NCBI GenBank assembly: GCA_039930045.1
Contig: JBDSQB010000002.1
Location: 1-64,000, forward strand
Reading direction: 5' to 3'
Origin: Chthoniobacterales bacterium
Lineage (GTDB): Bacteria > Verrucomicrobiota > Verrucomicrobiia > Chthoniobacterales > DASVRZ01
Length of the DNA: 64,000 nucleotides
The translations under genes and the position numbers were made by a program. Below, one piece after another: positions 31,511 through 33,761 of this stretch. Under the pieces are notes generated by a model. That model did not search any database, was not told where the DNA came from, and worked only from the letters and a program-made list of their open reading frames with translations. Numbering within the stretch: the first letter of the stretch is position 1; every line of letters starts with the position of its first letter.

Positions 31511-31617
31511 CTTGACGGCGCGCGCCTGGGCTGCAGCGAGCGAGTCGAATGCAACTCGGATGGAAAACTGGGCCCGGAGAGTTGACCGGGCGGCGGCGTT
31601 GCTTTTATCGTCGCGCC

Positions 31618-32823
31618 ATGTGGACGCGCTGTGTTTTCTCGATTTTCCTGGCGCTGGCCGCCCTCGTTTTTCCCGCTCAAGCCGAGGTGATGCTGGGGAT
31701 CGATGTGCTGGAGGCGAATCATTTCGATCTGTTGCAGGGCCGCCGCGTGGGGCTCGTAACGAATCAGACCGGAGTCAACTCGTCGGGGGTGAAAACGCGG
31801 AAGATTCTCAAAAACGCCGACGGCGTGAAGCTGGTAGCATTGTTTACCCCCGAGCACGGGCTCGATGGCACGGAGGGCGCGGGGAAATATATTACCTCGA
31901 GGATCGATTCGCTGACCGGACTTCCGGCTTACTCGCTCTATGGGCCGAATCGCAAGCCGTCGCCGGGGATGTTGAAGGGGATCGACACCCTGGTCTTCGA
32001 CATGCAGGACATTGGCTGCCGGAGTTACACCTATATCTCGACGATGGGGAAATGTATGCAGGCAGCCGCGGAAAATGGGATCGAATTTATCGTGCTCGAC
32101 CGACCGAATCCGCTCGGTGGCAACCGCGTGGAAGGCCCCGGCATGGAGAAGGAATGGATCTCGTTCATTGGGCAATTTCCCGTGCCGTATGTCCACGGAA
32201 TGACGACCGGTGAGCTGGCGCAGATGAGCAATGCGCGGGGCTGGATGGGGCCAAAGTGCAGCCTCAAAATTGTGAGAATGCGGGGCTGGAGCCGTTCGAT
32301 GACTTGGCCCGACACCGGGCTGCGCTGGGTGCAGACGTCGCCGAATGTGCCGCGCGCGATGTCGCCGTTTTACTATGTGCTGACGGGCTTGATCGGGGAG
32401 CTGAGCCCGCCGGAGTTGGGGATTAATACGAGTGAGCCGTTCGAGATCATGGCGACGAGCTGGATGAATGGCGGAAGTTTTGCCAGTTACTTGAACAGCC
32501 TCGACACGCCGGGGGTGGAGTTTGCGCCGGTGAGCGGGTTTAAGGGTTGTAACGGAGTGCGCATCCGCATCGCGCCGCACACGACGACGGATCTCTGCGC
32601 GACTTCGATGTTTATGTTGTCGTATATGAACAAAACGGCAGGGAGCCGGAGTATTTTTGCCCGCACTGGAGGCGAGGCGCTCGATCTTTTCTACAAATCC
32701 TGCGGAGGCAAAACCATCCGTCACCAGATCGAAGCGGGCGTGAGTCCGCAAAAGATCGCGGCGGGCTGGGAACCGTATCTGCGGCGATTCCGCAGTGAAC
32801 GCAGCGCTTATTTGCTCTACTAG
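31618..32823 (+). CDS. namZ: NamZ-like exo-beta-N-acetylmuramidase (DUF1343 family), exported
   Basis: A 401-residue protein with a signal peptide (CVFSIFLALAALVFPAQA). The DUF1343 hallmarks are GRRVGLVTNQTG, LFTPEHGLDGTEGAGK, VFDMQDIGCRSYTY, and VLDRPNPLGGNRVEGP. Characterised NamZ enzymes release MurNAc from the non-reducing end of peptidoglycan fragments, feeding cell-wall recycling. The start at ATG 31618 places the signal peptide at the N-terminus; an upstream frame start at 31549 would put charged residues before it. The gene is followed after 4 nt by nadD. Confidence 0.85.
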   Translation: MWTRCVFSIFLALAALVFPAQAEVMLGIDVLEANHFDLLQGRRVGLVTNQTGVNSSGVKTRKILKNADGVKLVALFTPEHGLDGTEGAGKYITSRIDSLTGLPAYSLYGPNRKPSPGMLKGIDTLVFDMQDIGCRSYTYISTMGKCMQAAAENGIEFIVLDRPNPLGGNRVEGPGMEKEWISFIGQFPVPYVHGMTTGELAQMSNARGWMGPKCSLKIVRMRGWSRSMTWPDTGLRWVQTSPNVPRAMSPFYYVLTGLIGELSPPELGINTSEPFEIMATSWMNGGSFASYLNSLDTPGVEFAPVSGFKGCNGVRIRIAPHTTTDLCATSMFMLSYMNKTAGSRSIFARTGGEALDLFYKSCGGKTIRHQIEAGVSPQKIAAGWEPYLRRFRSERSAYLLY

Positions 32824-32827
32824 CCTC

Positions 32828-33394
32828 ATGAAAATCGGACTCTACGGCGGCACTTTTGATCCCATTCATCACGGCCATTTGATTCTGGCTCGGACGGCGC
32901 TGGAAGAAATGGAACTCGACTCGATCATTTTCATTCCCGCAGCGATCTCGCCGCACAAGCTGGAAACCTCCCCCACTCCGTCGGCGATTCGCTGGGAGAT
33001 GATCCTCGCTTCCATCGACGGCGAGGCGGGAATCCTGGCCGACCCCTACGAGTTGGAGCTCGCCGGGCCGTCCTTCACCTACGACACGGTGCTGCATTAC
33101 CGGAAGAAATTTCCCGACGCGGAGCTCTTCTACTTCATCGGCTACGACAATCTCGAAAAACTCGACACCTGGCACCGCATCGAGGAGTTGAAATCGCTCG
33201 TGACTCTGGTCGTGCTGGATCGCGGCGCGGCGTCGGGCACGATCCCCTTTCCGCAGATCTTCCGCCGCTACGACATCTCGGCCTCGGACATCCGAAACCG
33301 GGTTGCCAAGGGACTTTCGATTCGCTATTTAGTAACACCGCCAGTGGACGACCTCATTCGCCGGCATCACCTCTACCAACCCCATTCCCATTAA
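32828..33394 (+). CDS. nadD: Nicotinate-nucleotide adenylyltransferase
   Basis: A 188-residue nucleotidyltransferase of NAD biosynthesis. It starts KIGLYGGTFDPIHHGHLILA, containing the HxGH-type nucleotide-binding motif, and ends with SASDIRNRVAKGLSIRYLVTPPV, the ISxTxIR-like motif. ATG 32828 gives the motif at residue 7, as expected; an upstream frame extension to 32795 overlaps the previous gene. The stop at 33392-33394 overlaps the apparent ATT start of rsfS. The nadD-rsfS order is common in bacteria. Confidence 0.93.
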   Translation: MKIGLYGGTFDPIHHGHLILARTALEEMELDSIIFIPAAISPHKLETSPTPSAIRWEMILASIDGEAGILADPYELELAGPSFTYDTVLHYRKKFPDAELFYFIGYDNLEKLDTWHRIEELKSLVTLVVLDRGAASGTIPFPQIFRRYDISASDIRNRVAKGLSIRYLVTPPVDDLIRRHHLYQPHSH

Positions 33395-33761
33395 ACTCAC
33401 CTCCGAAGAACTCGCCCGCATTTGCGCCCGCCTCGCCGCCGATAAAAAAGCTGAGGACCTCGTCGTTCTCGACTTGCGCGGCATCTCGACTTTTACCGAT
33501 TTCTTTGTCGTTTGCTCGGGCACGGCCGACCCGCATTTGAAGGCTATCGCCGGTTCGATCCGCGAGGGCTTGCGCGATGATTACAATGTAACTCCGCTCG
33601 CCGTGGACGGCTATCCGGCGAGCCAGTGGATGATCCTCGATTACATCCAGGTGATTGTGCACATTTTCCACGAGTCGAAGCGCGATTTCTACGACCTCGA
33701 GACGCTCTGGAACGACGCGCCTCGCCTCAAAATCGACGAGCCCGAACCAACGGTGCTATGA
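33390..33761 (+). CDS. rsfS: Ribosomal silencing factor RsfS, apparent non-canonical start
   Basis: A 123-residue RsfS/Iojap protein that binds uL14 and blocks subunit joining. It contains EDLVVLDLRGISTFTDFFVVCSGTADPHLKAIAGSI, then ASQWMILDYIQVIVHIF and the FYDLETLW tail. The homologous N-terminal part (KLTSEELARICARLAADKKAED) reads back to 33390, but the frame up to the stop at 33333 contains no ATG, GTG or TTG. The first standard start is TTG 33474, inside the conserved core. ATT 33390 overlaps the nadD stop (ATTAA), imitating the local ATGA coupling. ATC 33366 or ATT 33384 are other options. The 3' end overlaps the next gene by ATGA. Confidence 0.8.
   Translation: MKLTSEELARICARLAADKKAEDLVVLDLRGISTFTDFFVVCSGTADPHLKAIAGSIREGLRDDYNVTPLAVDGYPASQWMILDYIQVIVHIFHESKRDFYDLETLWNDAPRLKIDEPEPTVL

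Follow-up and report, generated by a model that had tools for sequence, protein, structure and literature searches.

In the window, the 64,000-nucleotide stretch of a Chthoniobacterales genome analysed here, the gene for ribosome silencing factor (rsfS) is highly likely to be translated from an AUU codon at position 33390. For the clade as a whole, we hold with still greater confidence that translation of rsfS would start at AUH (AUU, AUC or AUA; written ATH for the DNA codons ATT, ATC or ATA). In six families of the order (f1, f3, f4, f5, f8 and f10) the homologous start codon is ATH in 85 of 97 genomes (ATA 35, ATC 29, ATT 21), and in 80 of these 85 it is preceded by the core of a Shine-Dalgarno (SD) sequence. 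An earlier note on this DNA had suggested that rsfS starts at an unusual codon, AUU, that overlaps the stop of nadD, and with these counts its suggestion becomes the best reading of the junction; the note had reckoned with ATG in relatives should it be mistaken, and it was ATT, ATC or ATA that was found. The complete account, in which rsfS of the window would start at AUU 33390 after an ancestral AUG had given way to AUH with a strong SD and control by initiation factor IF3, is considered likely from the comparison of sequences.

The nadD-rsfS junction

The features of the junction are collected in Table 1. The product of nadD matches Pfam CTP_transf_like (E 2.3e-23) and scores above the cut-off of NCBIfam TIGR00482. 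Directly upstream of nadD lies a gene for a NamZ-type exo-beta-N-acetylmuramidase (31549-32820; Pfam NamZ_N and NamZ_C), and Rfam and tRNA scans of the window gave no matches. The open frame of rsfS extends from 33336 as far as the stop at 33761, and both family profiles are matched far above their cut-offs (PF02410, 105.6 bits against 21.6; TIGR00090, 104.9 against 56.9); the genome has a single rsfS. At its far end the TGA stop of rsfS shares the sequence ATGA (33758-33761) with an ATG of the small reading frame that follows, so that this downstream neighbour is able to use a normal start.

Table 1. Features of the nadD-rsfS junction in the window.
Feature	Coordinates	Strand	Remarks
nadD (nicotinate-nucleotide adenylyltransferase)	32828..33394	+	ATG 32828, stop TAA 33392-33394
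rsfS (ribosome silencing factor)	33390..33761	+	read from ATT 33390, 123 residues
proposed rsfS start, ATT	33390..33392	+	ATTAA overlap with nadD stop; direct reading and relatives
in-frame TAA, upstream bound of rsfS frame	33333..33335	+	direct reading
place of SD in relatives (GGAG/AAGGAG)	33372..33386	+	no SD in window
TTG, first standard start in rsfS frame	33474..33476	+	judged internal; within RsfS domain

Coordinates and sequence bear out the claim that no ATG, GTG or TTG lies between the in-frame TAA and the TTG, and the ATTAA that the earlier note had described can be read directly, the last T of the ATT codon being the first base of the nadD TAA. Two other isoleucine codons, ATT 33384 and ATC 33366, occur in the rsfS frame. 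Homology to RsfS was also said to reach upstream of the TTG, and so it does: the TIGR00090 match begins at frame residue 28 (33417), and positions 3-98 of Pfam RsfS (PF02410) correspond to frame residues 30-125, from 33423 (E 1.7e-30), while the TTG itself is frame residue 47.

Start codons and Shine-Dalgarno motifs in relatives

The window's genome is the only one of its family, and the comparison drew on other families within the order and the class. In each genome a single locus was oriented and matched to an RsfS profile, and the start codon was read 16 positions ahead of the conserved KKA motif, a place chosen because outgroup rsfS genes mostly have ATG there. For the order, 133 genomes were read, made up of 53 of the 54 matched in a first search together with 21 and 59 from later searches; the last 59 were taken from the best-scoring matches (180 of 197 genomes matched), and these lean to f5 and f8. 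One genome with rsfS split over two contigs (G045) was left out, and an upstream ATG in open frame led to the omission, by eye, of L102. For the same reason the apparent ATH codons of L026, L138, L140 and L158 (f2 and f13) were not counted. An f8 locus with an accidental TTG upstream, inside nadD (L369), was called by hand, and stop offsets were not used for L134 and L357, where the nadD assignment had hit another gene.

Within the six families, 86 of the 97 genomes have no ATG, GTG or TTG at or shortly before the homologous place, and the remaining 11 have a standard start either at the place itself (6) or 6-12 codons upstream (5). The start is ATT in f1, ATC in all 10 genomes of f4 and in the only one of f10, and ATA, ATC or ATT in 47 of 47 genomes of f8. 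Five of six f3 genomes have ATC, ATT or ATA, the sixth having CTG, and f5 has ATT or ATC in 21 of 32, along with ATG (5), GTG (1) and starts further upstream (5). These standard and upstream starts of f5 indicate that an AUH start of rsfS can be lost. Among the named genomes read are Chthoniobacterales and Spartobacteria MAGs, and a MAG labelled Chthoniobacter flavus (L046) has ATT. At least seven changes among ATT, ATC and ATA are required on the tree, or ten when the f2 and f13 rows are included. Two sequence features of an IF3-discriminated start, namely the lack of a standard start codon and conservation among relatives, are found in the window and in the 85 ATH genomes of its six families; a third, a strong SD as in infC, is present in 80 of the 85 and absent from the window.

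Elsewhere in the order, standard starts occur in f6 (ATG, 12/12), f7 (ATG 2, GTG 1) and f12 (GTG, 6/6), and in f2, f9, f11 and f13 most rsfS genes are extended at the N-terminus, an ATG lying upstream. One of the latter (L138, f13) specifies a protein whose long N-terminal extension is rich in Lys and repeats a unit resembling KKATAKETVV, and Lys-rich extensions are also present in f9 and other f13 genomes. In the other orders of the class 54 genomes were read, and none has ATH at the homologous codon; ATG, GTG or TTG lies within four codons of the place in 44 and slightly upstream in 6, and 4 are without a call. The outgroup start often reads ATG GAT TCN.

An SD core was defined as AGGA, GGAG or GAGG located 4-18 nt upstream of the start codon. 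Its frequency among the ATH genomes compares with 1 of 27 for the canonical-start rsfS genes of the order, 4 of 50 for the outgroups and 94 of 1099 for background windows inside nadD. Spacing is narrow: in 65 of the 69 genomes that have GGAG, its first G stands 10-12 nt upstream of the ATH codon. Duplex energies computed against a generic anti-SD have a median of -7.2 kcal/mol for the 85 ATH genomes, which include the window, against -1.7 for canonical starts, -1.55 for outgroups and -2.7 for the nadD background. Start type and SD core are strongly associated when kinship is ignored (Fisher p 2e-19), but the association is not independent of kinship: a kinship-aware test of start codon against SD had too few independent changes, with four on the tree and two supported independent pairs (sign test p 0.5). 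The SD might have arisen as a side effect of the amino acids that end NadD, or of one dipeptide there, but this was rejected, since GGAG occurs in each of the three codon phases of nadD (44, 17 and 3).

The overlap with nadD varies with the start codon. In all 34 ATA genomes where nadD was detected, the start runs into the TAA stop of that gene as ATAA, and ATTAA is formed in 14 of the 21 genomes with ATT, so the third base of the rsfS start often follows from the nadD stop. No overlap of this kind was found among the 29 ATC starts, which makes the avoidance of G at the third base independent of that stop.

Other genes of the same order were used as controls. Standard ATG, GTG or TTG starts were found for RbfA in 30 of 30 cases, for S20 in 28 of 30, the two failures (L252 and L278) being short-contig loci that were placed wrongly, and for nadD in 72 of 74. 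A general habit of relaxed start codons was rejected on these grounds. For nadD itself, most of the f8 genomes read (L005, L009, L012, L018, L023, L115, L119, L120 and L155) have TTG as the nearest standard start, and most other families have ATG.

Competing readings of the start codon

As ATT, ATC and ATA are exactly the isoleucine codons, and most genomes have a long run of open frame ahead of it, the conserved codon could in principle encode an internal isoleucine of a NadD-RsfS fusion produced by frameshifting or readthrough. However, the frame of nadD relative to that of rsfS is +1, +2 or 0 in different ATH genomes, so that no single recoding event could join the two proteins, and stops in the rsfS frame lie only 1, 1, 2 and 3 codons upstream of AUH in L115, L361, L024 and L354. 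The spacing of the SD also suits initiation, and outgroups have ATG at the same column. Together, these observations argue that the ATH codon is very probably a start, and the fusion was rejected as the least probable of the readings. Hardly better placed is the idea of a truncated protein made from the TTG at 33474, or of a normal start removed by sequencing error, which we regard as very improbable. While TTG is a legal start and the ATT of the window is without an SD, beginning at the TTG would cut about 17 positions from the Pfam domain, including K20, A21 and D28, columns that are invariant in a 15-sequence alignment (A1), and this start was rejected. In relatives, the next ATG, GTG or TTG is mostly 21-37 codons further on, or none is found in the scanned stretch, and its places are inconsistent. 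The worry over sequencing error is largely removed because nadD, too, would lose its stop codon if the base at 33392 were changed, and because the same pattern recurs in independent genomes.

A more substantial rival, although still an unlikely one, accepts the AUH start and gives IF3 no role, the codon being either a weak start by which less RsfS than NadD is made or the outcome of drift tolerated through coupling to nadD. The coincidence of AUA and most AUU starts with an overlapping TAA stop of nadD speaks for it, as does the retention of AUU in the window without an SD, but the 29 ATC genomes are free of the overlap constraint, and the prevalence of the SD core argues against a simply weak start. 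The layout of AUH and SD is, moreover, that of infC, apparently in this genome too. We therefore prefer a start at AUH that may be under IF3 control.

Possible control by IF3 and the window as an exception

RsfS blocks the joining of 30S and 50S subunits. In the account preferred here, the rsfS start would have changed from AUG to AUH in an ancestor of several families, with a strong SD placed 6-8 nt upstream, as in infC. IF3 would reject initiation at AUH, so that more RsfS would be made once less IF3 is free, as when it is bound up by 30S subunits that are in excess or not yet mature. With IF3 scarce, 50S subunits would be held apart by RsfS, in parallel with the autoregulation of infC. Initiation at AUH, the IF3 control, the direction of the ancestral change and its physiological sense are what we infer from sequence. 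Taken by itself, IF3 control of rsfS is given a slightly better than even chance, and an even one is given to the wider proposal that the order has a small regulon, made up of rsfS and infC, that senses IF3 and in which both anti-association factors would rise when 30S subunits titrate free IF3. A conserved AUH on a factor that blocks 50S joining would tie the dosage of RsfS directly to IF3 and, if true, would provide a simple rule for balancing the control of subunit association, with a 50S-side silencer dosed by a 30S-side factor; rsfS and infC, whose products both keep the ribosome halves apart, may thus be regulated alike.

To our knowledge, very few bacterial genes besides infC start with AUU, AUC or AUA, and rsfS would be, as judged by its conserved codon, a further gene of the infC and pcnB kind. 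The resemblance to infC lies in the AUH start, the strong SD and products that hold ribosomal subunits apart; infC, however, is autoregulated, whereas rsfS would be controlled by IF3 in trans and shares bases with the gene ahead of it, nadD. The function of pcnB is RNA polyadenylation and, unlike rsfS, it does not specify a ribosome-association factor. In E. coli, pcnB is a gene other than infC with an AUU start, and the two are described as the only AUU-start genes of that species (PMC9410913). IF3 is reported to destabilise or repress initiation at such codons elsewhere; it autoregulates infC, and represses the GTC start of Streptomyces sigR (PMC5472188). Like rsfS, sigR is a gene other than infC, but its start is GTC and not AUH, it encodes a sigma factor, and its control by IF3 was measured, whereas that of rsfS would be a prediction from sequence. 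In E. coli without RimM, IF3 and RsfS are both reported to rise (PMC13246957). A survey gives 1 of 61,358 ancestral AUG starts as switched to AUU, and links weaker starts (GUG, UUG) with stronger SDs (PMC5622118).

Starts of infC were called by eye at 50 loci, of which one was misplaced (L191). They are ATT in most families, CTG in f8 and ATG in most of f3. The infC of the window's genome (L200, at about position 1503) appears to start at ATA behind AAGGAG. The f8 genes (L201, L212, L213 and L217-L219) appear to be CTG-started, with a stop two or three codons upstream and no in-frame ATT or ATG between that stop and the CTG. The two genes switch separately, since f6 combines an infC ATT with an rsfS ATG, and f3 has mostly ATG for infC and ATH for rsfS.

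A literature search that covered few subscription journals found no report of a non-standard rsfS start. As gene finders generally disallow AUU, AUC and AUA starts, annotations of rsfS throughout the order are probably wrong or too short.

Of the genomes that show the pattern, the window fits it least well. No SD is present (duplex with the generic anti-SD, +2.9 kcal/mol, against the ATH median given above), and the start is at codon -18, not -16, since two additional codons precede the aligned segment. Structure around the start is weak (-5.8 kcal/mol over 80 nt, against a median of -12.4), and given this and the absence of an SD, initiation is probably carried by coupling; the SD would have been lost, and ribosomes ending nadD would re-initiate at the ATT that overlaps its TAA. 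Re-initiation has been studied in E. coli, and it is reported to be more frequent when an SD lies upstream of a coupled gene (PMC2268962). In a quick tree of NadD and RsfS, the window is sister to f8 and related named loci, within an ATH-rich group (SH-aLRT 91).
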